Positions 17,826 to 35,163 of a stretch of DNA of 49,445 nt are shown here, in pieces. Source of the stretch: Gemmatimonadota bacterium (lineage in GTDB: Bacteria; Gemmatimonadota; Gemmatimonadetes; Longimicrobiales; Gaopeijiaceae); contig JAPPNO010000072.1 in NCBI GenBank assembly GCA_028873845.1, forward strand, positions 1 through 49,445, given 5' to 3'. Each line of letters starts with the position of its first letter. The first letter of the stretch is position 1. The notes under the pieces were generated by a model that searched no databases, had not been told where the DNA came from, and saw only the letters and a list, made by a program, of their open reading frames with translations. The translations under genes and the position numbers were made by a program.

Positions 17826-20800
17826 ATGATCATCGTACTCAGACCTTCCACCTTCGCCGCAACCTTGCTGGCAGCCTCATTGGCCGCGGCCCCGGCGGCC
17901 GCCCAGGATCCCCCCGCCCCCACCCCGCCCCAGGTCACCTGCGCGGACTGGGGCTCCTACCGCTTCTTCGAACTGGCCTCGCCCGACACCGTCTTCGCGT
18001 GCATCGCCGTCGGCGCGGACCCCGGCGCCCCCGTGGACATGTACCGGGGGACGCCCCTGCACCACGCGGCGCGGGCCGTTTCCGACACCATCCTCATCAA
18101 CCTCCTTCTGGCCGGAGGGGCCGACATCAACGCGCGGGACCGCAGGGGCCGCACCCCCCTGCACGAGGCTGCCCGGGCCAATCTCCATCCCGGCGTGATC
18201 ACCGCACTCCTGGCCGCCGGCGCTGACGTGAATGCGCGCGACCTGCGCGGCGCCACCCCCCTGCACGAGGCGGTGCGCTTTAATCTCGAACGCCGGACGA
18301 CATCCAACCCCAACCCGGAGGTACTCACGGCACTGCTGCGTGGCGGCGCGGACGTAGACGCGCGTGACGACCGCCGTAACACGCCCTTGCATGGCGCCTG
18401 GATCAATCCGCCTCCCGAGTACGCGTGGCGCGACCCCTGGGTCAATGCCGAGGCTGTCAGCCTGCTGCTCGCCGCGGGTGCCGATCCGCTCGCGCGCAAC
18501 CAGAGGGGCGAGGCCGCGGATCCAGGCGTCTGCCGGAACTGGCGGCTGGCGATGTTTGCGCTGGTGGCGGCCCCGGCAGACTACGCCACCTGCGTAGAGG
18601 CGGGCACCGATTTGAACGCCCGTGACGAGAACGGCCACACCGTACTCCACCACGCGACCCTCAACACGGATACGGCCATCGTCCATCTGCTGCTCGAGGA
18701 GGGCGCGGACCCGAGCGTGGCGAGTTATGACAACCGCACCCCGCTCCACTTCGCGCTGCGCCGCCGCAACAACGCCGTTGCGGCCATTCTGGTGCGGGCA
18801 GGCGCCGACGTGAACACCGTAGCAAGCGACAGCATCACCCCTCTACACCTGGCGGCCTCCGACGAGGCCATGACGACCCTCCTCCTGGAGGCCGGCGCGG
18901 ATGTCCATGCACAGGCCCTGCGCGGCACGGCACTCCACCGGGCCGAAACCGCAGGTGTTGTCGATGCTTTGTTGGATGCAGGCGCGGACATCGATGCTCT
19001 CAGCTTCTTCGGCACCCCTCTGAGGGCTTCGATCGGGGGCGACTCTCTCTCCGAAGTCACCCGCAGGCTCCTGGAACGCGGAGCCGATCCCAACGCGCGC
19101 AAGGCAGGCGGTCTGACCCCCCTCCGCACAGCCACGCTCACGCGACCGGCCGTTATCAGCGCACTCCTGGATGCGGGGGCCGATCCGCTGCTCGGAGACA
19201 GAACCGGCAATACGCTACTGCATACCCTGTCCCGCTACTCCACGTCCCGGGGCAGCGTCACGATCCCGCTCCTGCTAAACGTCGGCGTGGACATCAACCT
19301 GCCCACCAACAACGGAGAAACGCCGTTGCACGTGGCGGCGGGAGAATCGAGGAATTCCGGCAACGTGGCCCTGCTCCTCGAGCTTGGCGCCGACCCCGGA
19401 CTGCGGACGACCGAAGGCGACACGCCCCTGCACTCCGCGATGTCGGCGTTTCGCCCCGACTCCAATTCGATCGCCACGCTCGTGGCGGCCGGGGCGGACA
19501 TCAACGCGCGCAACGAGAGCGGCAGGACCCCGGTGCAAGTAGCCTGGCAGCGTGGCCACACCGGGGTGGTTGACCAGCTCCTGGCGTTGGGCGCGGATCC
19601 GGTCGCTGGGGACGAGGGGGGCGGGCCGGTCGACGTGGCCTGCGACTGGGGTGACATGCGCTTCTTTACGGCCATGCCGATCGCGAGTCTGAGAGGGTGC
19701 CTGGAGGCGGGAACACCATTGGATGCGCGGGGCAGATTCGGCGACGTGTTGCTCACCGGATTGGCCTCAAGCGACAGCCATGGCCCGGGTACCCTGGAAA
19801 TGCTGGCGGTGTTTCTCGAGGCAGGTGTGGACGTCAACGGGCGGGACGACGCCAGCAGAACCCCCCTGCACAGAGTCGCGGACGCCGCTTTCGGGTGGAA
19901 CGGCGCGGGCGTGGTCCCCTTCGCCAGAGCACTGCTGGACGCCGGCGCCGAGGTCAACGCGCGCGGCCAGCGTGGCCAGACACCTCTCCACGCCGCCGCG
20001 GGCTCGGACCGGGAGGGCATTGGGGACAGCCTGGTTGTGTTGCTGGCGGAAGCCGGGGCGGACATCAACGCCCGCACGGAGACCGGAACGACCCCGCTGC
20101 ATCAGGCGGTGAACCGCCCGGCCATCGCGGCCGCGCTCCTCGAACTGGGCGCCGATCGGGCGGCGGTGGACGACTCGGGGTACGTCGCCGACCCGGTCGA
20201 CTGCCAGAACTTTGTCACGCGCAGCTTTTTCGCGCTGGCAACCCCAGAAACCGTGGCCGGCTGCATCGCCAAGGGGGCCAACGTGAACGTCGCGATGTCC
20301 GATCCCTGGTCGCGCTTCGCCACCGGCCCATACGGCCCCCGCCCACTCCACACCGTCGCCGAATCGGCCCGCGATCCGGCTACCATCACGGTGCTTCTCA
20401 AGGCCGGGGCCGCACTGCACGGACGCAACGAGGAAGACTACACGCCCCTCCACCACGCTGCGAAAAACGGCACCCCGGCCATCGTGCGCTCGCTGCTTGA
20501 GGTCGGCGCGCAGGTGGACATGCGCGCGAGCGGATACGACGTCGACTGGGGATGGGACTGGACTCCGCTTCACCTGGCTGCCGAGAACAACCCGGACGAG
20601 GCAGTGGTCCGTGTGCTGCTCGAGGCAGGTGCGGATGTGAACGCGCGGGCCTACTACGGCCAGACGCCCCTGATCCTCGCCGCGGGAAATGCAAACCCGG
20701 CGGTCGCCACCCTGTTGCTGGAGGCCGGAGCGGATGTGAACGCCCGCGAATGGATGGGAAGGACGGCACTGCACGAAGCTGCCGCATCGAACGGGAACCT

Positions 20801-21371
20801 CGCCATGATCGATCTCCTGCTCAACGCCGGCGCAGACCTGCAGGCGGTGGGAGGCTACGCCGAGGAGTATGTGCGCATCTACTCCCCGCTGGACGGCGTC
20901 ACGCCCCTGCACGTAGCCGCGGCGGGCAACCGGAATCCGGCGGTGTTGACCGCGCTAGTCCGCGCGGGCATCGAGGTGGACACGGGCCGGCCACCCGGCG
21001 CAGCCGCGGTCCCAATCGAACACGCCGGGACGTTCCTCACCGAGATCGCGATCGCGAACATCACGGACCCGGGGCACACGTCGCCCCTGCATCTCGCAGC
21101 GACCCGCAACCCGAATCCCGCGATCATCGAAACCCTGGTCGCCCTGGGCGCGGACCTGGAGCTGCGGGACAGGGACGGCCGCACCGCTTTGCACATGGCC
21201 GCGCGCAGCAATGCCCACGCATTCCTGGCCCTGCTGGCACTCGGGGCCGACGACACGGCCGTTGACGACGAAGGGCTCACCCCGTGGGACTACGCGAAGG
21301 ACAATGAGGCGCTACACGGGCTGCCAGAGGTGCGGCGGCTGCGCGAGGAAGAGGCGAGGGGTGTGCGCTGA
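17826..21371 (+). CDS. giant secreted ankyrin-repeat protein 1
   Basis: An 1,181-aa protein with a Sec signal peptide (LLAASLAAAPAAAQ, cleavage near residue 26) followed by roughly thirty ankyrin repeats of the GRTPLHEAARAN / LLAAGADVNARD type. The ATG is preceded by GAGAGGA. The repeats are interrupted four times by a module with the pattern C-x2-W-x4-FF-x(13-16)-C-x3-G: TCADWGSYRFF (Cys39), VCRNWRLAMF (about 236), ACDWGDMRFF (about 605) and DCQNFVTRSFF (about 792). The C-terminus ends GLPEVRRLREEEARGVR. Ankyrin arrays bind proteins; export means the target is outside the cytoplasm. It heads a likely operon with the next two ankyrin genes. Confidence 0.88.
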   Translation: MIIVLRPSTFAATLLAASLAAAPAAAQDPPAPTPPQVTCADWGSYRFFELASPDTVFACIAVGADPGAPVDMYRGTPLHHAARAVSDTILINLLLAGGADINARDRRGRTPLHEAARANLHPGVITALLAAGADVNARDLRGATPLHEAVRFNLERRTTSNPNPEVLTALLRGGADVDARDDRRNTPLHGAWINPPPEYAWRDPWVNAEAVSLLLAAGADPLARNQRGEAADPGVCRNWRLAMFALVAAPADYATCVEAGTDLNARDENGHTVLHHATLNTDTAIVHLLLEEGADPSVASYDNRTPLHFALRRRNNAVAAILVRAGADVNTVASDSITPLHLAASDEAMTTLLLEAGADVHAQALRGTALHRAETAGVVDALLDAGADIDALSFFGTPLRASIGGDSLSEVTRRLLERGADPNARKAGGLTPLRTATLTRPAVISALLDAGADPLLGDRTGNTLLHTLSRYSTSRGSVTIPLLLNVGVDINLPTNNGETPLHVAAGESRNSGNVALLLELGADPGLRTTEGDTPLHSAMSAFRPDSNSIATLVAAGADINARNESGRTPVQVAWQRGHTGVVDQLLALGADPVAGDEGGGPVDVACDWGDMRFFTAMPIASLRGCLEAGTPLDARGRFGDVLLTGLASSDSHGPGTLEMLAVFLEAGVDVNGRDDASRTPLHRVADAAFGWNGAGVVPFARALLDAGAEVNARGQRGQTPLHAAAGSDREGIGDSLVVLLAEAGADINARTETGTTPLHQAVNRPAIAAALLELGADRAAVDDSGYVADPVDCQNFVTRSFFALATPETVAGCIAKGANVNVAMSDPWSRFATGPYGPRPLHTVAESARDPATITVLLKAGAALHGRNEEDYTPLHHAAKNGTPAIVRSLLEVGAQVDMRASGYDVDWGWDWTPLHLAAENNPDEAVVRVLLEAGADVNARAYYGQTPLILAAGNANPAVATLLLEAGADVNAREWMGRTALHEAAASNGNLAMIDLLLNAGADLQAVGGYAEEYVRIYSPLDGVTPLHVAAAGNRNPAVLTALVRAGIEVDTGRPPGAAAVPIEHAGTFLTEIAIANITDPGHTSPLHLAATRNPNPAIIETLVALGADLELRDRDGRTALHMAARSNAHAFLALLALGADDTAVDDEGLTPWDYAKDNEALHGLPEVRRLREEEARGVR

Positions 21372-21416
21372 TGGATCCATGTACGAGCGAGAACTCCCCG
21401 AGTTGGAAAGACAAAA

Positions 21417-21457
21417 ATGTCAACTCCGGCTGACAAAAAGTGAATTGCAGTTGACAT
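21417..21457. promoter_or_regulatory. inverted repeat upstream of the second ankyrin gene
   Basis: ATGTCAACT at 21417-21425 and AGTTGACAT at 21449-21457 are perfect 9-bp reverse complements in the 96-base gap between the first two ankyrin genes, in locally AT-rich DNA. Upstream of the fourth ankyrin gene, 29879-29889 reads TGTCAATGACA, also a TGTCA/TGACA palindrome. A shared operator is possible. Confidence 0.4.
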
Positions 21458-21467
21458 GGATAAGGTG

Positions 21468-24400
21468 ATGAGACCGTTCGCCGTTACGATCACCTCGCTG
21501 GTGGTCCTCTTCGCCACGGCCTGCGCGGGTGGCCGACGTGCGGATTTGGAGAACGCATCAATCTCCCCTATGGAGTCTCCCGACGCTGCGGCGGCCACGA
21601 CACCTTCCCCCCCTGACACCACCCCACCCACCTGCGATGACTGGCACAACTGGGATTTCTTCGCGTCGGCCTCCACCGAACTCGTGCGGGAGTGCCTCCA
21701 GGCAGGAGCGGATCCGCAAGCCCCGGTCAATAGCGCTCCGGCCATCTTCAGCGCCGCACGGTCGGCTGCCGACGCGAGTATCATCACCCTTCTGACGGAC
21801 GCAGGGGCGGACCCCAACGCCCGCATGGGACCGGGACTGAGCGGCGGCGGCCGACCCGGCTACACGCCGCTGCACGTGGCCGCGGAGCGAAACCCTTCGG
21901 TGGGCATCGTCGACGCCTTGTTGGCGGCTGGCGCGGACGTAAACGCACGAGCCAACGACGGCAGAACACCGCTGCATGTGGCCTGGGCAAACCATCGTAC
22001 CATCATCGAAGCGCTTCTCCGGGCGGGAGCCGACCCGCTGGCTCGCGACGAACGCGGCCGAGCCGCCGATCCGACCAGTTGCGCGAACTGGAACACGGCG
22101 GCCTTCTCGCGGCTCGCGCTCCCCAACGAATTCGAGTTGTGCCTGCAGCTGGGAGAAGGCGTCGAGGCGCGCGACACCGACGGGAACACGCCGCTTCACC
22201 TGGCCGCGGAAGCCGGGAATCCGTCCTCGGTGAGGATCCTGCTGGAGGCCGGGGCGGACGTGAACACCCCAAGCAACTCGGGAGCCATCCCACTGCACAT
22301 GACCGTCCGCCACGAGAGTGCGGAGATCCTGACTTCGTTGCTGGAAGCCGGGGCGGAGATCAACGCCGGCGCGGGTGGATTTGGCACTCCTCTCCTGGTG
22401 GCGATCGCGTACCGCGGGTATGCCACGCGAAGAATCGGCGAGACGGCCGTGAACGCCCTGTTGGACGCGGGGGCCGACGTCAACGCGGCCGATTCGCAGG
22501 GTACCACCCCGTTGCTGGCAAGCCTGGATCCTGCGCGTCGCGAGGGGTCCCTGGCCGACCTTCCGTTGCGGCTGCTGGCCCATGGCGCGGACCCCAACCT
22601 GGACGACGGTCAGGGACGGACTCCGCTCCATGCGGCTGCCTCCGCCGAGGGACCGGAGATGGTAGGCGCGCTACTGGATGCTGGCGCCGATCCACAGGCG
22701 CTGGCCAGCGACGGTTCAACACCGCTTCATGCCGCAGCCAGGTCGGGGAGCGCCGAGGTCATCGACCTCCTGATCAGCGCCGGTGCGGACCCGGGCGCGG
22801 TGACCAGCGATTCCCGGACCCCGCTGCACCTCGCTGTCCGGCAGCGCAGGTCCGCCTTGTTCGGGGCCGAAGGTCGGCCGTCGCGACTTCCGGCGTTCGC
22901 GTTGCTTGAGGCCGGTGCCGATCCGGATGCGCGCACCGACGACGGCGACACGCCGCTCCACCTGCACCATTCGAGATGGGGATCCGATACTGCCCTGGTG
23001 TCCGGGCTCGTGCGCGCCGGGGCCGACTTGAACGCCCGGAACGCGATGGGCGAGACACCGCTGCATGTGGCTCGAAGGCTCGGTTACCTCCCGGCCGTGA
23101 ACAATCTTCTGCAACTCGGCGCCGACCCCGATGCGCGCGACCACGCCGGCCGAATCGCCAATCCGGTCTGCTACTGGGAGCCGGAGGGATCCGGGGACTA
23201 CGGATGGCTGGCCCGATCCCCGGCCGAGAGCGTGCAGGGTTGCCTGGAGAACGGGATCGCCGTGGACGCACGCGACGATGATGGCGCGACTTTCCTGGCA
23301 AGGATTGTCTCCACGCTGGGCTGCTGTGCCGACTTCGAGAATGTCCTTGCCGTATTCGTGGATGCCGGCGCGGACGTGAACGCGCGGGACAGTGCGGGTA
23401 GAACGCCGCTACATCGCGCGTTGGGCAATTCCAGCAGGATCCCCGCACCGGTCCTGCGCGGAGTGGTTTCAGCGTTGCTCGACGCGGGAGCGGACCCCAA
23501 TGCGCGCAACTCGGTAGGCCGGACGCCACTGCACGTCGCTGCCCGGTCCCGGGGAGTGTCAGACCCCCTGGTCCGCCTGCTTGCAACCGCCGGCGCGGAC
23601 CTCAACGCACTCAACAACGCCGGCGAAACGCCCCTCCAGCTCGCCCGGCAACGTAACGCCACCACAACCGTGCAGACTCTTCTCGAACTCGGCGCTGATC
23701 CGGCGGCGGCGGACGTTCCGAGCGCGACGCCCGATCCGGTCGCCTGCGAACGTTGGACCAGCGAAGACTTCTTCGCGCTCGCCACCGCCGACATCGTGGC
23801 CGGTTGCATCGCGGGCGGGGCGGATGTCCGGGCCGTCACTGGCAGGTATCGCGCTACGGAGCCGCTACTTCGTGCCGCCGCGAGTACCCGCGACCCGGCC
23901 GTCATCCCGGTTCTTCTGCGGGCCGGGGCAGATCTGAACGCACGAGACGACCGCTTTGGATTCTCGGCCCTCCACTACGCCGCCGAGAGCGGCACCGAAG
24001 TGCTGACACGGACGCTGTTGGAAGCCGGCGCGGACCCCAACGCATGGGCGATGGGCTACAACGTCGACTGGGGGTGGGGCTGGACCCCGCTGCACCTGGC
24101 CGCCCGGTCCAACCCGGACCCGGATGTCGTGGGCGCCTTGATCGAGGCGGGCGCGGATCTCGATGCCCCGAGCGGGGAAAGCTACCGAAAGGGCAATTCC
24201 CCGCTACACTATGCGGGTTCGAATCCGAATCCCGCCGTCACCGCGATCCTGCTTAATGCCGGGGCCGATGTGAACGCCCCATCGGTGCGTGAACGCACGC
24301 CCCTGCACGAGGCCGCCGCCAACGCCTCGGATCCCGCGGTGATCGAGCTTCTCGTCGAGGCCGGGGCCGACGTGAACGCACGCGACGCCAACGGTTACAC

Positions 24401-24869
24401 ACCGCTGCATTCCGCCGCCTGGTTCAACCATCGTCCGGAGATCGTGTCCGCGCTGATCGCCGCCGGAGCCGATGTGAATGCGCGCGACCCCGACGGATAC
24501 GTTCCTCCTTCCGGGCGAAGGGCAAACGACCGAACACCGCTGTTTATGTCCGTCTACCGCGGCGACGTGTACATCGGGGGTCAGCCAATGCCAACCGGGC
24601 ACAATGTCACGGTCGTGCAGGTACTGGCACGCGCAGGGGCGGATCTGACGCTGACGACCGGGTCCGGCCGAACCGCGCTCCACGCGGCCGCGCGGTGGAG
24701 CCCCGCCGCCTCCCCGCTGCTCATGCGCCTGGGCGCCGATCCGACCGCGCGCGACGCGGAGGGCAGGACGCCGATGGACGACGCACTGGGGAACCGTGCG
24801 CTTGAAGGGCTGCCCGAGGTGCGGCGGATGCGTGCAGCGATGCGAGCCGGGCGGGCGGGCCGGCGATGA
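21468..24869 (+). CDS. giant ankyrin-repeat lipoprotein 2
   Basis: A 1,133-aa lipoprotein: MRPFAVTITSLVVLFATAC gives a signal peptide with lipobox ATAC. I chose the ATG at 21468 because the fourth ankyrin protein starts with the same MRPF; an ATG four codons earlier is the alternative. It has about thirty ankyrin repeats with the Cys-Trp-Phe-Cys module at about residues 55 (TCDDWHNWDFF), 204 (SCANWNTAAF), 567 (VCYWEPEGSGDYGW, variant) and 758 (ACERWTSEDFF). It is closely related to the protein at 29901-33413 along its whole length. Its stop overlaps the next gene's start as ATGA, so translation is coupled. Confidence 0.87.
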   Translation: MRPFAVTITSLVVLFATACAGGRRADLENASISPMESPDAAAATTPSPPDTTPPTCDDWHNWDFFASASTELVRECLQAGADPQAPVNSAPAIFSAARSAADASIITLLTDAGADPNARMGPGLSGGGRPGYTPLHVAAERNPSVGIVDALLAAGADVNARANDGRTPLHVAWANHRTIIEALLRAGADPLARDERGRAADPTSCANWNTAAFSRLALPNEFELCLQLGEGVEARDTDGNTPLHLAAEAGNPSSVRILLEAGADVNTPSNSGAIPLHMTVRHESAEILTSLLEAGAEINAGAGGFGTPLLVAIAYRGYATRRIGETAVNALLDAGADVNAADSQGTTPLLASLDPARREGSLADLPLRLLAHGADPNLDDGQGRTPLHAAASAEGPEMVGALLDAGADPQALASDGSTPLHAAARSGSAEVIDLLISAGADPGAVTSDSRTPLHLAVRQRRSALFGAEGRPSRLPAFALLEAGADPDARTDDGDTPLHLHHSRWGSDTALVSGLVRAGADLNARNAMGETPLHVARRLGYLPAVNNLLQLGADPDARDHAGRIANPVCYWEPEGSGDYGWLARSPAESVQGCLENGIAVDARDDDGATFLARIVSTLGCCADFENVLAVFVDAGADVNARDSAGRTPLHRALGNSSRIPAPVLRGVVSALLDAGADPNARNSVGRTPLHVAARSRGVSDPLVRLLATAGADLNALNNAGETPLQLARQRNATTTVQTLLELGADPAAADVPSATPDPVACERWTSEDFFALATADIVAGCIAGGADVRAVTGRYRATEPLLRAAASTRDPAVIPVLLRAGADLNARDDRFGFSALHYAAESGTEVLTRTLLEAGADPNAWAMGYNVDWGWGWTPLHLAARSNPDPDVVGALIEAGADLDAPSGESYRKGNSPLHYAGSNPNPAVTAILLNAGADVNAPSVRERTPLHEAAANASDPAVIELLVEAGADVNARDANGYTPLHSAAWFNHRPEIVSALIAAGADVNARDPDGYVPPSGRRANDRTPLFMSVYRGDVYIGGQPMPTGHNVTVVQVLARAGADLTLTTGSGRTALHAAARWSPAASPLLMRLGADPTARDAEGRTPMDDALGNRALEGLPEVRRMRAAMRAGRAGRR

Positions 24870-27800
24870 ACCGCGCGCGCAGCGGCCGCCACGGCCCCGG
24901 TCCCCGAATCCTGGCGATCGTCCCCCCTGCGCTGTTCCTTGCCGCAGCCCGCGCCGGAAACCCGCGGACAAACTCGGCAAACACACCCGCGGAAACCTCC
25001 ACACCCGGCCACACCTGCGCCGACTGGGGCTCCCGCGACTTCTTCCGCTCAGCCTCGCCACAGGAAGTGAGCGAATGCCTGGAAGCAGGCGCCGACCCCA
25101 ACGGACCTCCGGGCCTCCATCCCCTGCCCCCCCTGTTCATCGCGGCCGGAGTAACACCTCACGCGGCCGTCATCTCCTTGCTGGTCGAAGGTGGAGCGGA
25201 CGCTTACGCCCGGGAGTGGGACGGACTGACCCCCTTGCACGAGGCCACAGGCCGCAATACACCGGCCGCCGTCGTCATCTCGCTTCTTGACGCCGGGGTG
25301 GACCCGAACGCCCGGGACCGGGACGGCATCGCCCCGCTGCACCTGGCGGCGCGTAATCGCAACCCGGGTATCGTCACCGCCCTGGTTGAAGCCGGTGCCG
25401 ACCCCGATGTTCGCGGACCCTCCGGCAACACCCCGCTGCACATGGCCTGGTCCGGCTTGTCCCTCCCCGCAGACGCACATATCGCGGTCATACGGGAATT
25501 ATTGCGGTTGGGGGCCGACCCCGTCGCGCAAAACGATCTCGGACTGATCGCGGACCCCACCCACTGCGCGCACTGGCAAACGACCGTTTTTGCTCGCGTC
25601 GCGCTCCCCGCCGACTTCGCACGATGCCTGGAAGAGGGCGCGGACGTGCATGAACGCGACGCGGATGACAACACCGCCCTCCACCGCACCGCCTCGTTGG
25701 ATGCCAACGCGACGACCCTGCTGGTGGACGCCGGCGCCCAGGTGAACGCACGCAACAGTACGGGGCGCACCCCGCTCCACCATGCCGTGACGAACGGCAA
25801 CTCGGCCTCCGTCGCCGTCCTGCTGGCCGCTGGTGCGGACGTTGATGCGGCGGACTCGCGCGGCGGGACCCCCATTGGGCGGGCCGCATGGCGCACCCTT
25901 TCCGCACCGGAAGACGCGACGGAGTTGGTCTCGCAACTGCTCGCGGCCGGCGCGGACCCCAACACAAGAGGAGAGTGGGGCCACCCGCCGCTATACATGG
26001 CCGCTGACCACGGAAACGTGGCGTTGGTCGGCGTGCTCCTGGAGGCCGGCGCGGATCCGAACGTGACGACTGACAGGGGCGAGTTTCCTCTCGAAGCCGC
26101 AGCACTGTTCGGCAACCCCGAAATCATCCGGCTCCTGCTGGCCGCCGGGGCGGATGTCAACACCCGGAACCCGAGGGATGGCTCCGCACCGCTGCACAGG
26201 GCGGTTTTCGGGGAGGACGCCGAGTCGCGGGTGTCCCCGCTTCTGGAGGCAGGCGCGAATCCACGGGCGCGAAACGCGGGAGGCGACACGCCCCTGCACC
26301 TTGCGCCGCCCACGTCCGACACCGTCGTGGTGTCCCTGCTGGTCCGCGCCGGGGCCGATCTGACCGCCCGGAACGAGCGAGGAGAGACGCCGCTCGAGGT
26401 CGCCCGCCACCACGCCAACGTGCGGGTCGCGCGCAAGCTGATCGAGCTCGGGTCGGACCCTGGACCGGAGGGCGCCGGATGGATCGACGACCCGCCGTGC
26501 GACTTCAGTCGGTTGGGCCTTCTCGGGAAGGTCCCGCTCGAGACCGTACAGGACTGTCTGCAGAAGGGTCTTCAGGTCGACAGACCGATCTGGTTCGATC
26601 GGGCTCCGCTGCTGTATCTGGCAGAACAGGAAATGGGCCGCGATCGGGCTGCTCCGGAAAAGATCGTTCTCTTCCTGAAGGCGGGCGCCGACCCCGACAC
26701 GCGCAACCGAAATGCTGATACACCGCTGCATATGGTAGCCAGAGGCGGAGCCCGCGCCGAAGTCGCTGCCGGCGCGCTGCTGGCGGCGGGTGCCGACGTG
26801 AACGCGCGTAACCAAGAGGGGCGGACGCCCCTGCACAACGCGGCGGCGGCAAGGGGAGAGGATACGACTCTCCTGCTGCTTTTCTTGCAGGCCGGCGCGG
26901 AGGTCAACGCCCGCACGCAACTCGGCGAGACCCCGCTGCATTTGGCTACGCCCGGACGACCGCATCGCCATGCATGGCAGGACCGCGCCCAGGTCATCAA
27001 CGCCCTGCTGGATGCCGGCGCGGAGGTGAATGCCAGGACGAGCGACGGGCGGACCCCGCTGCACATGGCCCTGGAAGCAGACCGACCCGCCGCCGCAATG
27101 AAGCTGTTGGAGGCCGGAGCGGATCCGGCGGCGCGAGACGGCGCGGGGAGCCTCGCTGATCCGGTCGCCTGTGAGCGCTGGGGCACCGCGACCTTTTTCG
27201 CCGCCGCCAGTGTCGATGTCGTGGCCGGCTGCCTCGAGGCAGGCGCAGACCCGAATCCCATACCGCGAACGCAGGACCGCAACCGGCCGACGCTCCTGCA
27301 TGTGGCTTCGGTCCATGCGCGGGATCCCGCGGTGATCAACACCCTGGTGCGGGCGGGGACGGTTGTCAACGCGCGTGACCGGTTCGGCTACACGCCCCTC
27401 CACCAGGCCGCCGAGAACGGTACTCCGGACGCAGTGCGGGCACTGCTTCGGGCAGGCGCGGATCTTCACCTGCGACAGCGGGAATCCGACTCCTGGTTCG
27501 CGCCAAGAGGGGGACGCGCCGCCCTGCATTTCGCGGCAACCAACCCTAACCCCGAGGTTGCCGCCGCGCTCCTCGATGCCGGTGCGGACGCCGGGGCACG
27601 CGAAGGGCCACGGGGCCAGACATCGTTGCACATCGCCGCGCAAAACCGGAATCCCGATGTGGCCGGACTCCTGCTGGAAGCCGGTGCCAACGTGAACGCC
27701 CGCATGTTCAGCGGGCTCACACCGCTCCATGTGGCAGCCACGAGCAACGCAAATCCCGCGGTGCTCGCCATCCTCCTGCAGGCCGGGGCCGACCCCAACG

Positions 27801-28318
27801 CGCTTGGAGAAAGCAGCGACTGCGCCCACTGGAACTGGTCTGGCAGGCTGACTCCACTATACGGTACGGCCCGGGACAACCGGAACCCCGAGATTGTGGC
27901 GATGCTCGTCGCCGCGGGAGCGGACATTGACGGGCGCGGGGCGCAAATGCGGTTTGCCTGCGACTCCTCGCCTACGACACAAGTCTCGCCGCTATACATG
28001 GCGGTACGCTACGACGGACACCCCGTCATGATCGAGGCACTGGCGCGCGCAGGCGCGGACCTGGAGCTGAGCGATCCGGATGGACGTACCGTCCTTCACC
28101 GGGCCGCGATCGAGAGACCTTTCGTCTTCCCGCTGCTGCTACGCCTGGGCGCCGATCCGGAAGCGCGCGATGCCGAGGGGAAAACCCCGATGGACTACGC
28201 CCGGGAGAACCCCGCACTGCGGCCATGGGAGCGGGTGAGAATGTCAACTCCGGTGGGAAGCCGCCTCCTCGACCTCACCTTCGACGTAGTTGCAGATCGC
28301 CTCGTAGATCTCCCGTAG
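24866..28318 (+). CDS. giant exported ankyrin-repeat protein 3
   Basis: An 1,150-aa protein starting at the ATG in the ATGA overlap with ankyrin gene 2. The N-terminus has an export-type hydrophobic segment (ILAIVPPALFLAAARAG) but no lipobox. Cys-Trp-Phe-Cys modules occur at about residues 50 (TCADWGSRDFF), 231 (HCAHWQTTVF), 543 (PCDFSRLGLLG, variant) and 765 (ACERWGTATFF). The C-terminus differs from the other three: the usual GLPEVRRMR tail is replaced by PWERVRMSTPVGSRLLD and the frame runs 75 bases into the convergent gene at 28244-28882. The original stop may have been lost in a rearrangement. Confidence 0.85.
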   Translation: MNRARSGRHGPGPRILAIVPPALFLAAARAGNPRTNSANTPAETSTPGHTCADWGSRDFFRSASPQEVSECLEAGADPNGPPGLHPLPPLFIAAGVTPHAAVISLLVEGGADAYAREWDGLTPLHEATGRNTPAAVVISLLDAGVDPNARDRDGIAPLHLAARNRNPGIVTALVEAGADPDVRGPSGNTPLHMAWSGLSLPADAHIAVIRELLRLGADPVAQNDLGLIADPTHCAHWQTTVFARVALPADFARCLEEGADVHERDADDNTALHRTASLDANATTLLVDAGAQVNARNSTGRTPLHHAVTNGNSASVAVLLAAGADVDAADSRGGTPIGRAAWRTLSAPEDATELVSQLLAAGADPNTRGEWGHPPLYMAADHGNVALVGVLLEAGADPNVTTDRGEFPLEAAALFGNPEIIRLLLAAGADVNTRNPRDGSAPLHRAVFGEDAESRVSPLLEAGANPRARNAGGDTPLHLAPPTSDTVVVSLLVRAGADLTARNERGETPLEVARHHANVRVARKLIELGSDPGPEGAGWIDDPPCDFSRLGLLGKVPLETVQDCLQKGLQVDRPIWFDRAPLLYLAEQEMGRDRAAPEKIVLFLKAGADPDTRNRNADTPLHMVARGGARAEVAAGALLAAGADVNARNQEGRTPLHNAAAARGEDTTLLLLFLQAGAEVNARTQLGETPLHLATPGRPHRHAWQDRAQVINALLDAGAEVNARTSDGRTPLHMALEADRPAAAMKLLEAGADPAARDGAGSLADPVACERWGTATFFAAASVDVVAGCLEAGADPNPIPRTQDRNRPTLLHVASVHARDPAVINTLVRAGTVVNARDRFGYTPLHQAAENGTPDAVRALLRAGADLHLRQRESDSWFAPRGGRAALHFAATNPNPEVAAALLDAGADAGAREGPRGQTSLHIAAQNRNPDVAGLLLEAGANVNARMFSGLTPLHVAATSNANPAVLAILLQAGADPNALGESSDCAHWNWSGRLTPLYGTARDNRNPEIVAMLVAAGADIDGRGAQMRFACDSSPTTQVSPLYMAVRYDGHPVMIEALARAGADLELSDPDGRTVLHRAAIERPFVFPLLLRLGADPEARDAEGKTPMDYARENPALRPWERVRMSTPVGSRLLDLTFDVVADRLVDLP

Positions 28319-28882
28319 CGGGCAGGTGGCCCTCTGGATCTTGAGCTTCAGGCGGACAGCCTCCTTCGCCTTTTCCCAATGCCCGCAAAGTTCGAGGTCC
28401 TCGATGCACTCCATACAGGCCCATACCCCGCCACCACAGAAGCTCAGAGCGGCGCCGATGTTCAGCGGGGTAGGGGTTGCGATAGCAGCCACGACCAAGG
28501 GCTTGCAGGCCAGCGCACCCCCGGCACAGACAGTACACTTCACGCCCATCTTGATCGTTTCCCAGGTGCTACACTCCCGGGCACCGCCTCTCCGCTGGTC
28601 GAGGTCGGCGTCGATGCAGACGGACACCTCCACCGTAAGCAGCTCTTCGGCTTCCGCCACGCGAGGCGAGATCGCCATCGCGCCCCCGGCAAGCAGTGCC
28701 ACCGCCGCCATCGGCTTCAGGAACTCCCTGTCATCCTTATACCGAAAGGCCGTCCTTACGGCACTCGCCGTCAGACAGAAGATGAGCATCGGAGCAAACC
28801 CGATGGTGAACAGCAGGACCATGGCGACGGGTATGCCCCACCACAGCAGGTCCTTGGTGATGCTCCAGAGTAGTCTGCTCAT
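28244..28882 (-). CDS. cysteine-rich membrane protein of unknown function
   Basis: A 212-aa protein. The ATG at 28882 overlaps the upstream gene's stop as ATGA and has AAGGGGA before it. It starts with two membrane segments (LLWWGIPVAMVLLFTIGFAP and a second near MAAVALLAGGAMA), then a region with many cysteines: KCTVCAGGALACKPLVVAA, SFCGGGVWACMECI and ATCPLREIYEAIC. A second hydrophobic hairpin lies within the Cys-rich part, somewhat like cysteine-rich bacteriocins, but I do not recognise the family. It is expressed with the lipoprotein at 28879-29349 and is convergent with ankyrin gene 3, overlapping it by 75 bases. Confidence 0.7.
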   Translation of the reverse strand: MSRLLWSITKDLLWWGIPVAMVLLFTIGFAPMLIFCLTASAVRTAFRYKDDREFLKPMAAVALLAGGAMAISPRVAEAEELLTVEVSVCIDADLDQRRGGARECSTWETIKMGVKCTVCAGGALACKPLVVAAIATPTPLNIGAALSFCGGGVWACMECIEDLELCGHWEKAKEAVRLKLKIQRATCPLREIYEAICNYVEGEVEEAASHRS

Positions 28883-29349
28883 TTCCCCTTCTTCCTTTCC
28901 GCTTCGATGAACTTCATGCTGTCCAGCGACTCGAAGATCGTTTTCAATTCCCCGACCGACTCCCGCCACGCGTCAAGGTCCACCTCAAGTTCGCCGCGTT
29001 CGATCTTGGCGAGCAACTCCTCCACCTCTTTCTCGACATCGAAGTCCTCGGCCACGCCCTCATCCGCGATCATGGTCATCAGCTCGTCATACGAGTCGGC
29101 CGCGATCTCTCGAACCACGAGGCCATCAGGCCCCTCCACCCGCAACACGAGAGGGTGGTCCAGAGTTCCCCCGGCCGCCAGAACCGCCTCTTCCAACTGC
29201 TGCTCCGACGCCTCGGTCAGCGCCAAGACTCCCGCATCGGTGATGGCCACCTCCAGAACCATCTCCTCCATGAGGGCATCCTGCTCGTCCGTGCAGGCCG
29301 TCACCACCGCGAACACGGCGATCATGGCCAGTGTGTGTCTCCAGTTCAT
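28879..29349 (-). CDS. small lipoprotein of unknown function
   Basis: A 156-aa protein. The ATG at 29349 gives a short signal peptide (MNWRHTLAMIAVFAVVTAC) with lipobox VTAC; the longer open frame to 29526 runs through the hairpin-rich leader and is unlikely. The mature part is acidic and helical (TDEQDALMEEMVLEVAITD, EKEVEELLAKIERGELEVDL) and ends in a charged coiled-coil-like helix. It is the first gene of a two-gene operon with the Cys-rich membrane protein. The pair sits, in reverse, between ankyrin genes 3 and 4. A 14-bp hairpin lies 22 bases upstream of its start and may control it. Confidence 0.7.
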   Translation of the reverse strand: MNWRHTLAMIAVFAVVTACTDEQDALMEEMVLEVAITDAGVLALTEASEQQLEEAVLAAGGTLDHPLVLRVEGPDGLVVREIAADSYDELMTMIADEGVAEDFDVEKEVEELLAKIERGELEVDLDAWRESVGELKTIFESLDSMKFIEAERKKGK

Positions 29350-29807
29350 GGAAACGCTCTTTTCGGAGTAGGGGACGAGGCGGGAGGCGATCCCGCTTCG
29401 TCCCTGTGGTGGACGGGCCGCTACCCGGCCCGCCTCTATTGTGGGCTTACCTGCCCGGTGTGTCCATTGCTCACCGGCCCGGACGTGGTGCCGGGCCATA
29501 GCAACAACCCAGCAGGAGGAACCCACAGGCCCTGCCTATTCGTCCGAAGCCGGTGCGGGAGCTACCCGCTGGCCCCATGCTGGACTGTTCTATTCAGCAG
29601 GCGACCCGACTTCGGCCCCTGCTGGATTGTTGCATCCAGAAATGGTACGTCCCCTCTTCCGGTTCCGCAACCTCCTGATACCGCTTGAGACCTTGCGACA
29701 CGCCCCAACGGTCCCCATCCTCCCATCCCACACAGAAGCGGTGGGCACCCCGGATAGAGCCCGGGGCACCCACCTACGCCCGACATTTTCCCAAAGGGAG
29801 GTAGCAA
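29350..29807. other. hairpin-rich intergenic region, possible structured RNA or leader
   Basis: No protein gene is convincing here. Strong inverted repeats are lined up: 29372-29404 (14-bp stem, one G-T wobble, 5-base loop), 29414-29432 (CGGGCCG/CGGCCCG, 5-base loop), 29476-29497 (GGCCCGG/CCGGGCC, 8-base loop), 29595-29624 (CAGCAGG/CCTGCTG) and 29740-29774 (two 6-bp stems separated by a CA/CA mismatch, 7-base loop). This density is unusual even at high GC. I find no match to tmRNA, RNase P or SRP RNA landmarks. It lies between the divergent lipoprotein operon and ankyrin gene 4. Confidence 0.4.
29372..29404 (-). promoter_or_regulatory. 14-bp hairpin in the leader of the lipoprotein operon
   Basis: GGGACGAGGCGGGA pairs with TCCCGCTTCGTCCC (a single G-T pair) around the loop GGCGA. 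On the minus strand it lies 22 bases before the lipoprotein ATG at 29349. There is no T-run after it, so it is more likely a leader structure than an intrinsic terminator. Confidence 0.4.
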
Positions 29808-29876
29808 ATGTCAGACGCTGATTCCGTCGCTGGGGCCAGCGAGAGACTGGCGAAGAAGATGCTGACCGAAGCGTGA
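29808..29876 (+). CDS. possible 22-residue peptide with a strong ribosome site, upstream of ankyrin gene 4
   Basis: AGGGAGGT lies five to seven bases before an ATG that opens a 23-codon frame, MSDADSVAGASERLAKKMLT followed by EA and a stop. The ribosome site is among the best in the window. It ends 24 bases before the ankyrin start. It may be a leader peptide, a real microprotein, or the N-terminal remnant of a lost gene. No homologue is recognised. Confidence 0.4.
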   Translation: MSDADSVAGASERLAKKMLTEA

Positions 29877-29900
29877 ACTGTCAATGACATGAGGGGGAGA

Positions 29901-32900
29901 ATGAGACCGTTCGGCATCGCGGCCACCTTGCTGGTCGCCCTCTTCGCCACGGCATGCGCGGGTGGGCGGGGGACGGACTCGAAGGGCGCGAACAGTCCCG
30001 CAGCGGCTACACCCGGCGCCGCGGCCGCGCCGACACCGTCTACATCTGAACCCACCCCACCCACCTGCGACGACTGGCGCAACCGCAACTTCTTCGCATC
30101 GGCCTCGCTGGAACTCGTTCGCGAATGCCTTGAGGCGGGCGCGGACCCGCAAGCTCCGGTGACGTCCGCTCCGGCGATCTTCAGCGCGGCGCGCACCGCA
30201 ACCGACCCGGGCATCATCACCCTTCTCACGGACGCCGGGGCGGATCCCAACACTCGGCTGGGCGGGGGACTCCGAGGCACCGGCAGCGCCGGCTCCACCC
30301 CGCTGCACACGGCTGCGGCGCAGAACTCCACGCCCGGTATCGTCAACGCGCTGGTGGCGGCCGGCGCCGCCGTAGACGCGCGTGACAGTGAGGGTAGGAC
30401 GCCCTTGCACGCGGCGTGGACGAACGGTCGCGCCGTGATCCAGGCACTCCGGCGGTTGGGTGCGGACCCATTGGCTCGCGACGAGCGCGGCCGGGTCGCC
30501 GACCCTGTCAGCTGCGCGAACTGGAACACCGCGGCATTCTCCCGGCTGGCACTTCTGAGCGAATTCAAGCTGTGCCTGGAGCTGGGTGAAGGCTTGAACG
30601 CGCGCGACAGCGACGGGAACACGCCGCTCCACCTGGCGGCGGAAACCGTGAATCCCTCCGCCGTACGGTTCCTGCTGGAGGAAGGGGCGGATCTGAACGC
30701 CCCAAACAACTTGGGGGCGACACCTCTGCACATCGCGGTCAACAATGAGGGCGTGCAATTCCTGGTGATGGTGCGGGAGGAAGGGGCGGACATCGGTTTC
30801 CCGAGCAGCATCACGCCTCTCCACATTCCCGAGGGCAACGAAGGAGAGGAGATCCTGCCCGGGCTGCTGGACGCTGGGGCGGACATCATGACTGCGCTAC
30901 TGGAAGCTGGAGCCGACGTCAACGCCGGCTCAGGCACCTATGGTACTCCCCTGTTGCATGTCATCACCGGAAGCCGGAGGGTCCGCACGGCGGCGATCAA
31001 CGAAGCTGCCGTAGCCGCACTCCTGGAAGCGGGGGCCGACGTCAACGCCGCCGATTCGGACGGCAACATCCCGTTGCTGGCAAGCTTGAACACCGAGCGT
31101 CGTGAGGCTCCCCTCTCCGCGCTTGCGTTGAGGCTGCTCGCGCTCGGCGCGGATCCCAACCGTCGCGACGGCCGCGGCCGAACACCACTCTTCGAAGCTG
31201 CCGCCCTTGAGGAGCCTACGGTGATCCATGCGCTGCTGGAAGCGGGGGCCGACCCGCTCGCCCTGACCGACGACGGGGCCTCGACGCTTCACGCCGCGGC
31301 CGCGTCGGGAAGTCCCGATGTCGTCAACCTCCTGGTTGGCGCCGGTGTGGATCCGAACGCGCTGATGGGCGATTTCGGGACTCCGCTGCACATTGCGGTC
31401 GGGGGGTCCTCAGGCGGCTTGTTTGCACGCACGGTTGATTCGCACTGGCGACTCCGCGCGTTCGCGTTGCTCGAAGGCGGCGCCGATCCGAATGCACGCG
31501 CCAAGCAGGGAGACACTCCCCTGCACCGCACATCAGATACTGTCCTGGTGACCGGGCTGGTGCGGGCCGGGGCGGACGTGAACGCCCGCAACGACATGGG
31601 CGAGACGCCACTTCACCTGGCTCGTAGACGCAACAGGCTTCCGGCTATCCGCAGGCTCCTGGAATTCGGCGCCGATCCGGAAGCGCGCGACCACGCGGGG
31701 AGGATCGCCGATCCTGACTGCCATTGGGAACTCAGGGGTAGTCCCCTCCACGGAGCGGCGTTCCTGGCAAACGCGCCGGTCGAAAGCGTGCGCGGGTGCC
31801 TTGAGAGCGGGATGTCGGCGGATGCTCGCGGGGAGAACGGTGCGACCCTGCTGGAGAACATGGTATCTGCACTCGCCTGCTGCGCGGATTTCGAGAATGT
31901 CCTTCGCGAGGTTGTGGCAGCGGGTGCGGACGTGAACGCATGGGACGATGAAGGCAGAACCCTCCTCCATCGCGCTCTCACCATGTCCGGGAGGGTTCCC
32001 GCTTCGGTCTTGAACGTCGTGGCGTCGGCGCTGCTGGAAGCGGGGGCCGACCCGAACGCGCGCGATCTGCAGGGCAGGACACCGTTTCACACCGTGGCGG
32101 GCACCGGGGATTCCAGCTTCCTGGTGGACATCCTGGCAGCGGCCGGTGCGGACATCAACGCGCGCGACAACAGTGGCCAGACCCCGCTCCACATCGCCCT
32201 GGGCGGCTACGACCCTGCCACGGTCCGCGCTCTGTGGCGCGCCGGAGCCGATACGGCGGCCCGTGACAGTGCCGGCACCACAGCCGATCCGGTCGCCTGT
32301 GAGCGCTGGGGCACCCGGAACTTCTTCGCCGTGGCCACTGCCGATATCGTGGCCGATTGCATTGCGGCCGGGGCGGATGTCCATACTGCGGTTGGCAGAT
32401 ACTCGCGCGTTGCCGTACCGCTCGCCAAAGCCGCCGAGTGGACCCGTGACCCCGCCGTCATCTCCGTATTGCTGGAAGCCGGGGCGGATGTGCACGCACG
32501 CGACGACTTTTACCAGTACACCCCTCTCCACCATGCCGCCCGAAAAGGAACGGAAGCGATGGTGCGGGCGCTCCTGGAGGCTGGCGCGGACGCCGATGCC
32601 TGGGCCACCGGCTACAACACCGATTTCGGTTGGAACTGGACCCCGTTGCATCTGGCTGCGGAAAACAATCCGGACCCGGGGGTCGTCGCCGCTCTTCTGG
32701 AGGCGGGCGCGGACTTTGAAGCCCTCGGCGGGGCAGCCTTCAGGCCGCCCGCCAACTCTCCGCTACACTATGCGGGTGCGAACTCGAACCCCGCCGTCGC
32801 CGAGGTCCTCCTCGACGCCGGTGCCGACGTGAACGCCCGTTCGCCGAGTGGCCGGACCCCACTGCACGAAGCCGCCGCCTACGCTTCGAATCCCGCGGTC

Positions 32901-33413
32901 ATCGAGCTTCTGGTCGCGGCGGGAGCCGACGTGAATGCCCGCGACCTCAACGGCCACGCACCCATGCACTCGGCCGCCTGGTACAACCACCGGCCGGAGG
33001 TCATGGCCGCGCTGATCGCCGCCGGGGCCGACCTGAACGCGAGGGATCCCGACGGCTACGAGCCTCCCGCCGGGGGCAGCGTCAACGACCGCACGCCGCT
33101 GCTCATGACGGTGTACCGCGGGGGCGGCTACATCGGGGGTGGGCCGACGTACACCAAGTTCAATGCGCCGGTAGTGGAGACGCTGGTGCGCGCCGGCGCC
33201 GACCTGACGCTGACCGACGAATCCGGCCGCACGGCGCTGCACGAAGCCGCCAGGTGGCACCCCGCCGTCTTCCCCCTGCTCATGCGTCTGGGCGCCGATC
33301 CGACCGTGCGCGACGCGGAGGGCACGACGCCGCTGGACTACGCGCTGCGAAACCGTTCTCTGGAGGGGCTGCCCGAGGTGCGGCGGATGCGGGAGGCGCT
33401 GCGCCGGAGGTAA
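29901..33413 (+). CDS. giant ankyrin-repeat lipoprotein 4
   Basis: A 1,170-aa lipoprotein. The ATG at 29901 has GAGGGGGAG in front and gives MRPFGIAATLLVALFATAC with lipobox ATAC; the ATG at 29889 is an in-frame alternative. It is the close paralogue of ankyrin protein 2 from signal peptide to C-terminus (GLPEVRRMREALRRR). Cys-Trp-Phe-Cys modules are at about residues 54 (TCDDWRNRNFF), 201 (SCANWNTAAF), 604 (DCHWELRGSPLHG, variant) and 795 (ACERWGTRNFF). One repeat region near residues 285-330 (FLVMVREEGADIGFP, PGLLDAGADIMTALLEAGAD) is irregular, as if repeats were partly deleted or duplicated. It is convergent with qhpA, 16 bases apart. Confidence 0.87.
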   Translation: MRPFGIAATLLVALFATACAGGRGTDSKGANSPAAATPGAAAAPTPSTSEPTPPTCDDWRNRNFFASASLELVRECLEAGADPQAPVTSAPAIFSAARTATDPGIITLLTDAGADPNTRLGGGLRGTGSAGSTPLHTAAAQNSTPGIVNALVAAGAAVDARDSEGRTPLHAAWTNGRAVIQALRRLGADPLARDERGRVADPVSCANWNTAAFSRLALLSEFKLCLELGEGLNARDSDGNTPLHLAAETVNPSAVRFLLEEGADLNAPNNLGATPLHIAVNNEGVQFLVMVREEGADIGFPSSITPLHIPEGNEGEEILPGLLDAGADIMTALLEAGADVNAGSGTYGTPLLHVITGSRRVRTAAINEAAVAALLEAGADVNAADSDGNIPLLASLNTERREAPLSALALRLLALGADPNRRDGRGRTPLFEAAALEEPTVIHALLEAGADPLALTDDGASTLHAAAASGSPDVVNLLVGAGVDPNALMGDFGTPLHIAVGGSSGGLFARTVDSHWRLRAFALLEGGADPNARAKQGDTPLHRTSDTVLVTGLVRAGADVNARNDMGETPLHLARRRNRLPAIRRLLEFGADPEARDHAGRIADPDCHWELRGSPLHGAAFLANAPVESVRGCLESGMSADARGENGATLLENMVSALACCADFENVLREVVAAGADVNAWDDEGRTLLHRALTMSGRVPASVLNVVASALLEAGADPNARDLQGRTPFHTVAGTGDSSFLVDILAAAGADINARDNSGQTPLHIALGGYDPATVRALWRAGADTAARDSAGTTADPVACERWGTRNFFAVATADIVADCIAAGADVHTAVGRYSRVAVPLAKAAEWTRDPAVISVLLEAGADVHARDDFYQYTPLHHAARKGTEAMVRALLEAGADADAWATGYNTDFGWNWTPLHLAAENNPDPGVVAALLEAGADFEALGGAAFRPPANSPLHYAGANSNPAVAEVLLDAGADVNARSPSGRTPLHEAAAYASNPAVIELLVAAGADVNARDLNGHAPMHSAAWYNHRPEVMAALIAAGADLNARDPDGYEPPAGGSVNDRTPLLMTVYRGGGYIGGGPTYTKFNAPVVETLVRAGADLTLTDESGRTALHEAARWHPAVFPLLMRLGADPTVRDAEGTTPLDYALRNRSLEGLPEVRRMREALRRR

Positions 33414-33429: not shown

Positions 33430-35163
33430 TCACCGACGCTCCCGCGACCCTCCCCGATCCCCCCCACCAATAGTCGGCCGCCCCGGCATCTCCATCACCC
33501 GCCACGGCTCCCACCGCATGTACAGCGGCACCGTGACGATCAGGTGCGCCCGCCCCCGCAACTCCTTCCCGTCGGGCCCGGTCCACGTCCCCACCACCCA
33601 AACGTCCCCCACATTGTTGCGCTGACCGCTGCGATCCGGATTCGGCCCATCCAGCGCCGGCATGAACAGCCCGTCCTCGTCCAGCGACCCCACAAACTCG
33701 ATGTCGTCGTCGTCGAAGACGGCCGAGTATTCCTCCATCGACCACGTCACGTCCACATGGCCGAGTTCCAGATCATCGCCCGTCTCCGGCTTGCCGTCGG
33801 GACCGTCGCTGTACGCGACCGCCTCGAACTGCGCGTAGCCCTTCGGGAAGGCCCCACCCCCCAGCCGCGACATCCCCCACTCGGGCGTCACCGCGATCCG
33901 GTCCACGGTTTTGTAGACCGTCAGGTGCCCAGGCACCGGACGCCCCCCCACAAACACGTCGCGCGCCCCCGCCGCCACCTCCTCGCCCGCCGCCACCTCC
34001 ACCGACAACCCATCCGACTCGCTCCGAACCACCCGCACCACCTCCACCCCCGGCCCGAAGTCAACATCCCCCACCCCCAACCCCACCCCCATGTTCACCC
34101 CATGCACCGTGACCGTCCCGCTCGTCCCCGCCTTCAGCGACACGGGATGAAGCCCAAGCAGCACCGGCCCATCCACACGCAGCAACGTCACATCGGGCCC
34201 GAACTCGTCGTACGCCCCCGCGAACCAGCGGCCGTTGATCTCGCCCCAGCCACGCTCGACCATCATCACCTCGCGCAGCTCGGTCTCATCGTCCCCACCC
34301 TCGAACGACCGTCCCCGCCACTGGTACCCCGTGTACACGATCGAGCGGCCGCTCCGCTCCACCTCTTCGCCGGTGCGCGCATAGGTGTACCTGGCCGTGC
34401 TCGTGAAGCTGGTCGCGTCGGCCGCGGCGGCGATCTCGACCGTTCCGTAGATCGGTCCGCGGCCCGGCTCATAGCCCTTCAGCGCCCAGGTGCCGGCCAG
34501 GCGTGCCGGCCGCATCGTCGCCGACCATGAGGTCCACTCGTCCGTCTTGAGCGGGAAGACGCCCGACAGGTGGGCAACCGCCTTGTCCATCGGGTGGCGC
34601 GAATCGGTCGCACCCGGCCGCGGCGGCCCGAAACGCCTGAACCCCTGCGTGTCGGAGAGCGGATAGTACCCCCGGTGCATCGCCATCAGCAGCTTCCACT
34701 CCTCCCGGGTGCGGCGCTGGGTGATCACCCGGCCCATCGAGTGGCACTGGCTGCAGGTGTTCTCGACATCCTCGTCGGCCTCGTACGACCAGTCGATCAG
34801 ACGACGCTCGACCTCGAAGCGGCCGGGCCTGAGTTCCTCGGGGGCGAGACCGTGCTTGTCGGAGAGGTAGCGGACGATGGCGCGGGCCGTTTCGGGATCC
34901 AGTTCGGCCTCGTTCAGCGTGACCATGCGCCGGATCGACTGCTGCCAGCCCTCGGGCGTCTTGCGCATGAACGAGACGCGGCTCATGAGGCCGTCGTCGT
35001 CGACGGTGTGGCAGCGCTGGCATGCGTCGATGACGGTCTGGTCGGTGACGGGGATGCCTTCTTCGCCGTTGTCGTCGCTGTCGGGCTGTTGGGGGGCGGC
35101 GGGTGGGGGGAATGCGGGGAAGAGCAACAGGGCTGCGGCTGCGGTCGTTGCGAGGAATCTCAT
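33430..35163 (-). CDS. qhpA: quinohemoprotein amine dehydrogenase alpha subunit, di-heme cytochrome c
   Basis: A 577-aa periplasmic subunit that takes electrons from CTQ through two c-type hemes. The signal peptide is LATTAAAALLLFPAFPPPAA. Heme-binding motifs are CQRCH (Cys48, Cys51, His52) and CSQCH (Cys137, Cys140, His141), spaced as in the QHNDH alpha subunit. Other landmarks are FMRKTPEGWQQSIRRMVTLN and LAGTWALKGYEPGRGPIYG, followed by beta-rich domains (LLGLHPVSLKAGTSGTVTVH) like domains III and IV of the known structure. It is somewhat longer than the roughly 500 residues usual for the subunit, with a C-terminal Gly/Arg-rich end. It is 21.7 kb from qhpC, whereas these genes usually form one operon. 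A GGAGG lies 11 bases before the ATG. Confidence 0.93.
   Translation of the reverse strand: MRFLATTAAAALLLFPAFPPPAAPQQPDSDDNGEEGIPVTDQTVIDACQRCHTVDDDGLMSRVSFMRKTPEGWQQSIRRMVTLNEAELDPETARAIVRYLSDKHGLAPEELRPGRFEVERRLIDWSYEADEDVENTCSQCHSMGRVITQRRTREEWKLLMAMHRGYYPLSDTQGFRRFGPPRPGATDSRHPMDKAVAHLSGVFPLKTDEWTSWSATMRPARLAGTWALKGYEPGRGPIYGTVEIAAAADATSFTSTARYTYARTGEEVERSGRSIVYTGYQWRGRSFEGGDDETELREVMMVERGWGEINGRWFAGAYDEFGPDVTLLRVDGPVLLGLHPVSLKAGTSGTVTVHGVNMGVGLGVGDVDFGPGVEVVRVVRSESDGLSVEVAAGEEVAAGARDVFVGGRPVPGHLTVYKTVDRIAVTPEWGMSRLGGGAFPKGYAQFEAVAYSDGPDGKPETGDDLELGHVDVTWSMEEYSAVFDDDDIEFVGSLDEDGLFMPALDGPNPDRSGQRNNVGDVWVVGTWTGPDGKELRGRAHLIVTVPLYMRWEPWRVMEMPGRPTIGGGDRGGSRERR

Follow-up and report, generated by a model that had tools for sequence, protein, structure and literature searches.

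Four giant exported ankyrin proteins encoded in the 49,445-nucleotide stretch of Gemmatimonadota DNA analyzed here (the window) each carry four copies of a two-cysteine module that is likely a disulfide-locked N-terminal capping ankyrin repeat, so that each giant would comprise four ankyrin units. In the proposed arrangement, the Cys-x-x-Trp turn would cover the exposed end of the solenoid, sitting atop helix A (FFxxA) and helix B (VxxCLxxGAD), and the module disulfide would fasten this turn to the end of helix B, with ordinary ankyrin repeats stacking onto the cap. Small exported proteins would have a single cap just after the signal peptide, and the giants four, giving separately capped units of fixed identity (short, long, short, long) that probably act as surfaces for binding at the cell envelope or beyond it. 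As part of the same reading, we consider it likely that the cap is an ankyrin repeat adapted to extracytoplasmic life. The disulfide between the module cysteines, its stabilizing effect, and the binding function are what we infer from the evidence below.

Coordinates of the four genes, their modules, and the flanking genes are listed in Table 1. The initial annotation had described a pattern, DPxxCxxWxxxxFFxxAxxxxVxxCLxxGAD, near residues 40-55, 200-235, 545-605, and 760-795 of all four proteins; 16 of 16 copies were found, four in each protein, and the positions of the first cysteines agree with these ranges to about 10 residues. The third copy is the most divergent, as had also been claimed, with its cysteines 19, 24, 19, and 26 residues apart in the four proteins vs. 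a constant 20 in copies 1, 2, and 4. The statement that the modules divide the repeats into blocks of similar length proved wrong, as the blocks follow a short-long-short-long order of 147-196, 312-403, 186-223, and 378-396 residues.

Table 1. Giant ankyrin genes, cysteine modules (M1 to M4), and flanking genes in the window.
Feature	Position	Strand	Description	Basis
qhpD	16207..17742	-	radical SAM maturase of quinohemoprotein amine dehydrogenase; edge of array insertion site (flank); adjoins qhpA in congeners	TIGR03906, 555 bits (cut-off 453)
Giant exported ankyrin protein 1	17826..21371	+	1181 aa; type I signal peptide; 4 modules; 8 Cys, every one in a module	ORF/translation, Pfam Ank, Cys positions
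Protein 1 M1	17919..18071	+	Cys39/Cys59	profile match, Cys positions
Protein 1 M2	18507..18659	+	Cys236/Cys256	profile match, Cys positions
Protein 1 M3	19623..19766	+	Cys606/Cys625	profile match, Cys positions
Protein 1 M4	20178..20360	+	Cys793/Cys813	profile match, Cys positions
Giant exported ankyrin protein 2	21456..24869	+	1137 aa; lipobox ATAC at Cys23; 4 modules	ORF/translation, Pfam, Cys positions, export-signal inspection
Protein 2 M1	21615..21758	+	Cys60/Cys80	profile match, Cys positions
Protein 2 M2	22056..22208	+	Cys209/Cys229	profile match, Cys positions
Protein 2 M3	23148..23306	+	Cys572/Cys596	profile match, Cys positions
Protein 2 M4	23724..23879	+	Cys764/Cys784	profile match, Cys positions
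Giant exported ankyrin protein 3	24866..28318	+	1150 aa; signal peptide; 4 modules	ORF/translation, Pfam, Cys positions, export-signal inspection
Protein 3 M1	24995..25147	+	Cys51/Cys71	profile match, Cys positions
Protein 3 M2	25541..25693	+	Cys234/Cys254	profile match, Cys positions
Protein 3 M3	26477..26623	+	Cys545/Cys564	profile match, Cys positions
Protein 3 M4	27146..27307	+	Cys769/Cys789	profile match, Cys positions
Giant exported ankyrin protein 4	29889..33413	+	1174 aa; lipobox ATAC at Cys23; 4 modules	ORF/translation, Pfam, Cys positions, export-signal inspection
Protein 4 M1	30048..30191	+	Cys60/Cys80	profile match, Cys positions
Protein 4 M2	30489..30641	+	Cys209/Cys229; modelled separately	profile match, Cys positions
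Protein 4 M3	31698..31862	+	Cys611/Cys637	profile match, Cys positions
Protein 4 M4	32274..32435	+	Cys804/Cys824	profile match, Cys positions
qhpA	33430..35163	-	quinohemoprotein amine dehydrogenase alpha subunit; other edge of insertion site (flank)	TIGR03908, 471 bits (cut-off 274)

The Pfam ankyrin models PF12796, PF00023, and PF13637 match all four proteins at 293-427 bits, above the gathering score. Identity with a Dot/Icm ankyrin effector (AnkY, AnkH, and others) was rejected: the best AnkY score was 261 bits vs. an NCBIfam equivalog cut-off of 600, and these are generic repeat matches. Genes 2 and 3 overlap by four bases. Two opposite-strand ORFs (28244-28969 and 28879-29526) lie between ankyrin genes 3 and 4; neither has a Pfam or NCBIfam match, and the first is hydrophobic near its N-terminus and rich in Cys in its C-terminal half.

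When the 16 window copies are aligned, both cysteines and the GAD glycine are present in every one. Among 333 distinct modules, the second cysteine is conserved in 100%, the first in 99% (register slips included), and the glycine in 99%, while the tryptophan, first phenylalanine, and alanine each reach 92%. To limit circularity, both cysteine columns were masked in the profile and all ORFs of the fetched loci were searched; both cysteines were in register in 330 of the 333 modules, and the other three have a cysteine beside an alignment gap. No Cys-less copy was found at E<10 with the N-terminal half of the masked profile, although a locus with only Cys-less modules could be missed, as the loci had been fetched with the unmasked profile. 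Module cysteines account for 272 of all 305 cysteines in 34 intact four-module ORFs, leaving a cysteine content of 0.11% of residues outside the modules. No further cysteine occurs from M1 onward in 20 of these 34 proteins, and most of the extras are vicinal CC pairs. In the window, the non-module cysteines of proteins 2 and 4 are the lipobox cysteine and one such pair (residues 623-624 and 664-665), and protein 3 has two others. Among the giants, CC pairs occur at two fixed places, in LGCCADFENV after M3 and in WDRCCWTT near the C-terminus, and are possibly vicinal disulfides.

These patterns bear on a simpler explanation, namely that the module is an ordinary degenerate ankyrin repeat whose cysteines are unbonded, buried core residues kept by descent from recent duplicates. 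Such descent would fit the match of the second half of the module to ankyrin profiles, the predicted fold (an ankyrin-like helix pair), and the second cysteine, which by alignment appears to occupy the place of a core leucine in helix B. However, many module pairs align at only 25-40% identity, so the module has changed a great deal around two cysteines that have not, and cysteine is almost absent elsewhere in these proteins. Nor did the masked profile of the N-terminal half pick up any ordinary ankyrin repeat, and this half carries about nine extra residues ahead of helix A. We therefore regard a degenerate repeat as unlikely.

Database comparisons likewise separate the two halves of the module. 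For its first 31 residues, neither NCBIfam nor PDB sequences gave a match, Pfam and PHROGs gave lone chance-level matches, and none was to a Pfam ankyrin model. The module alone does not reach the gathering score of the Pfam ankyrin models; the few members that match do so weakly (E 0.00057 at best), and in the best rows the whole-module profile matches PDB sequences through the ankyrin half alone (positions 22-45 or less). The initial annotation knew of no named domain of this kind. This is borne out over the first 31 residues, whereas the second half corresponds to a half-repeat of the usual ankyrin type.

The cysteine pair could instead be functional, serving as a redox switch, a metal or cofactor ligand, a covalent attachment site, or a source of interchain bonds. 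Strict conservation is what this would predict, and the source genome encodes four redox-type thioredoxin-fold proteins. These are DsbA-like (Thioredoxin_4) and count in favor of the disulfide cap as well; counting against the cap, DsbB and VKOR models found no partner oxidase in the 96.5%-complete genome. Each module offers only two ligands, though, and the column table for the 333 modules shows no invariant His, Asp, or Glu near the pair; nor is there a CxxC or CxxCH motif. Because the pair is present at every new ankyrin stretch, small single-unit proteins included, a fold element fits better than a functional site, and we judge the latter very unlikely.

Structure predictions are consistent with a cap. 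An AlphaFold2 (AF2) model of full protein 1, with eight sequences as input, had a mean pLDDT of 78 and a pTM of 0.48, with low values around M3 and after M4. All four modules in this model have a three-residue turn at CxxW followed by helix A and then helix B, and a separate model of the protein 4 M2 fragment gave a pLDDT of 94-96 over the module. Solved solenoids cover the inter-module stretches of the full model: ankyrin-R D34 (1n11) aligns to residues 271-607 (Z 29.5, 3.5 A), a DARPin from its residue 14 (4k5b) to 607-774 (1.8 A), and ankyrin-1 (7uzu) to 792-1141 (3.3 A); low confidence of the model at the modules may be why some alignments end there. By secondary structure and by alignment of solved solenoids across it, the module is predicted to be an ankyrin-type helix-turn-helix packed in a solenoid. 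The initial annotation had named ordinary ankyrin helices with distant cysteines as evidence against its proposal; ankyrin-like helices are indeed predicted, which is one half of that outcome. As helices A and B are antiparallel, the turn before helix A would adjoin the end of helix B, where the second cysteine lies, making a bond between the two plausible.

The position of the module within proteins also suggests a cap. All 34 intact four-module proteins have an export signal (by a crude hydrophobicity test and inspection), and M1 follows either a type I signal peptide, often ending ...ASAQED-Cys, or a lipobox with a Pro-rich tail. In other genera, many relatives are small exported proteins whose single module comes immediately after the signal peptide or lipobox; the single cap would be ancestral and the four-cap form later. 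DARPins align to the module from about their residue 13, which corresponds to their N-cap. The module therefore stands at the start of a solenoid in single-module relatives, after the signal peptide at M1, and by DARPin alignment. The original proposal that paired cysteines could form disulfides capping each block remains the interpretation with most support, and on these grounds it can be narrowed to an N-terminal cap with a presumed bond.

Among the 34 intact four-module ORFs, median gaps between modules are about 150, 400, and 186 residues, with about 356 after the last module. The best match of a module is the same position in another protein for 134 of 136 modules, and the same is true for 135 of 136 blocks, so the four-unit plan predates most of the gene duplications. 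Internal duplication of a short-plus-long half is not supported, as M1-M3 has the lowest similarity of the pairs (63.1, vs. 73.1 for M1-M4 and 82.7 for M2-M4). A single relative is the best match for all four blocks in only 8 of the 34 proteins; in the other 26 the best relative changes between blocks, a weak hint that paralogues exchange blocks. More tentatively, the cap could mark an extracellular recognition system peculiar to this lineage, in which tandem giant ankyrin receptors, each built of four disulfide-capped binding units, swap units between paralogues at the caps and so diversify binding. The spread of 0 to 60 matches per congener genome would also fit such a system, but we regard it as rather doubtful. 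Most of the 34 giants also share a conserved aromatic insertion loop, approximately AWATGFxxDWGWxxTPLH, in the third hairpin after M4 in block 4 (about residues 897-915 in protein 1, and likewise in proteins 2 and 4), a candidate functional site.

Searching with a profile built from the 16 window copies, the check that the initial annotation had suggested, recovered copies on other contigs, in congeners, and in other Gemmatimonadota. Many further modules occur in the source genome on contigs C15, C130, and C44, and C15 carries a second tandem array that is larger than that of the window. Copies on other contigs, which were outside the training set of the profile, score level with the window copies (e.g., E=2.5e-19 at C15:13195). 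Seventeen of 18 sampled congeners have matches, numbering 1 to 60 each (0 to 60 across all), and 12 genomes representing two further families of the order gave no match. Distribution across the phylum is patchy, with the module in 34 of 298 Gemmatimonadota genomes and 5 of 119 genera; the closest named relative is a Longimicrobiales metagenome-assembled genome (OX639991.1), a match that puts the window in Gemmatimonadota. The consensus module had no match in plasmid and phage collections, and none was found at E<=1e-6 in 100 genomes from the phylum of a Microbacterium locus, a search that ran without a positive control there.

The array lies between two genes for quinohemoprotein amine dehydrogenase, and a functional tie to that enzyme, for example as a periplasmic assembly partner, would be one way to explain this location. 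Ankyrin genes do lie between qhpA and qhpD in several genomes, with one to four of them, on the opposite strand, in G000 (the source genome), G046, G007, G009, and G167. In nine congeners (G001, G002, G004, G006, G010, G014, G016, G017, and G018), however, the two genes are adjacent, with 4-56 bases between match ends and no ankyrin gene, as they are in the outgroup G022 (129 bases), and G013 retains a mere truncated ankyrin gene between them (comparison loci L063, L068, L074, L084, L109-L112, and L115). Gene order thus indicates that ankyrin genes entered the operon by insertion and then expanded in place; as the site is empty in congeners, the location says little about ankyrin function. The opposite strand of the array and the second array elsewhere in the same genome (C15) also speak against the tie, which we dropped as highly improbable. 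An exported leucine-rich-repeat protein of 1200 aa that matches Peptidase_M66 is encoded beside the array (35972-39571, minus strand), and relatives of it are found near ankyrin genes on other contigs and in other genomes (L035:10461-13073, minus strand; L083). Exported proteins with an (R)DSAGVxIVEN-type start, some matching the 6-bladed beta-propeller DUF5128, are repeatedly interleaved with ankyrin arrays (window 716-2011, 6518-7795, and 8591-10093, minus strand; L033:1738-2922, L055:3702-5051, L059, L061:1944-3224, and L070).

Compared with the ankyrin repeat (PF00023, PF12796, PF13637), the module shares the helix-turn-helix, helix B, and the GADvNAr hairpin, and the repeats downstream of it are ordinary; it differs in having about nine extra residues with CxxW in place of the TPLH start, and an obligatory cysteine pair. 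N-terminal capping repeats of DARPins and natural ankyrins take the same place in the solenoid, but the module also recurs within the chain, four times per protein, and to our knowledge DARPin caps have no disulfide. The nearest idea by action is LRRNT, the cysteine-rich, disulfide-bearing N-terminal cap that shields the open solenoid end of extracellular leucine-rich-repeat proteins. If the module disulfide is real, it would act in the same way, although repeat fold and sequence are different, the LRRNT model did not match the modules in Pfam scans, and we claim no homology. A disulfide-capped solenoid is a known device in extracellular leucine-rich-repeat proteins, whereas the searched literature reports neither a disulfide cap nor a cysteine module for ankyrins. 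Long ankyrin chains are also split into units in tankyrase, whose ankyrin repeat clusters are the nearest case for chain division (ARC2-3 entries align across block 2 of the model), and in the four subdomains of ankyrin-R/B; unlike the giants, these are cytosolic, are split by linkers or altered repeats, and lack cysteine caps.

In sponge symbionts, ankyrin-repeat proteins that like the giants are bacterial and expanded within genomes reportedly modulate phagocytosis (Nguyen 2014, as cited by PMC6372511 and PMC6506613); by contrast, no cysteine module is described for them in the literature consulted. Longimicrobiales include host-associated members (PMC10581226), and by analogy with ankyrin-rich symbionts one might guess that the capped units contact a host. 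Two Gemmatimonadota surveys do not mention ankyrins.

The module, absent from all libraries searched, would provide a sequence tag for exported capped ankyrins, and the cap would be a natural part for building tougher DARPin-like binders for oxidizing surroundings. Ankyrin domains are usually viewed as a cytosolic fold that does not need disulfides. A cap with obligatory cysteines would reveal a bacterial route to the ankyrin fold outside the cell, and the large, fast-changing arrays of Gemmatimonadota would offer a test case for the diversification of surface ankyrins in bacteria.
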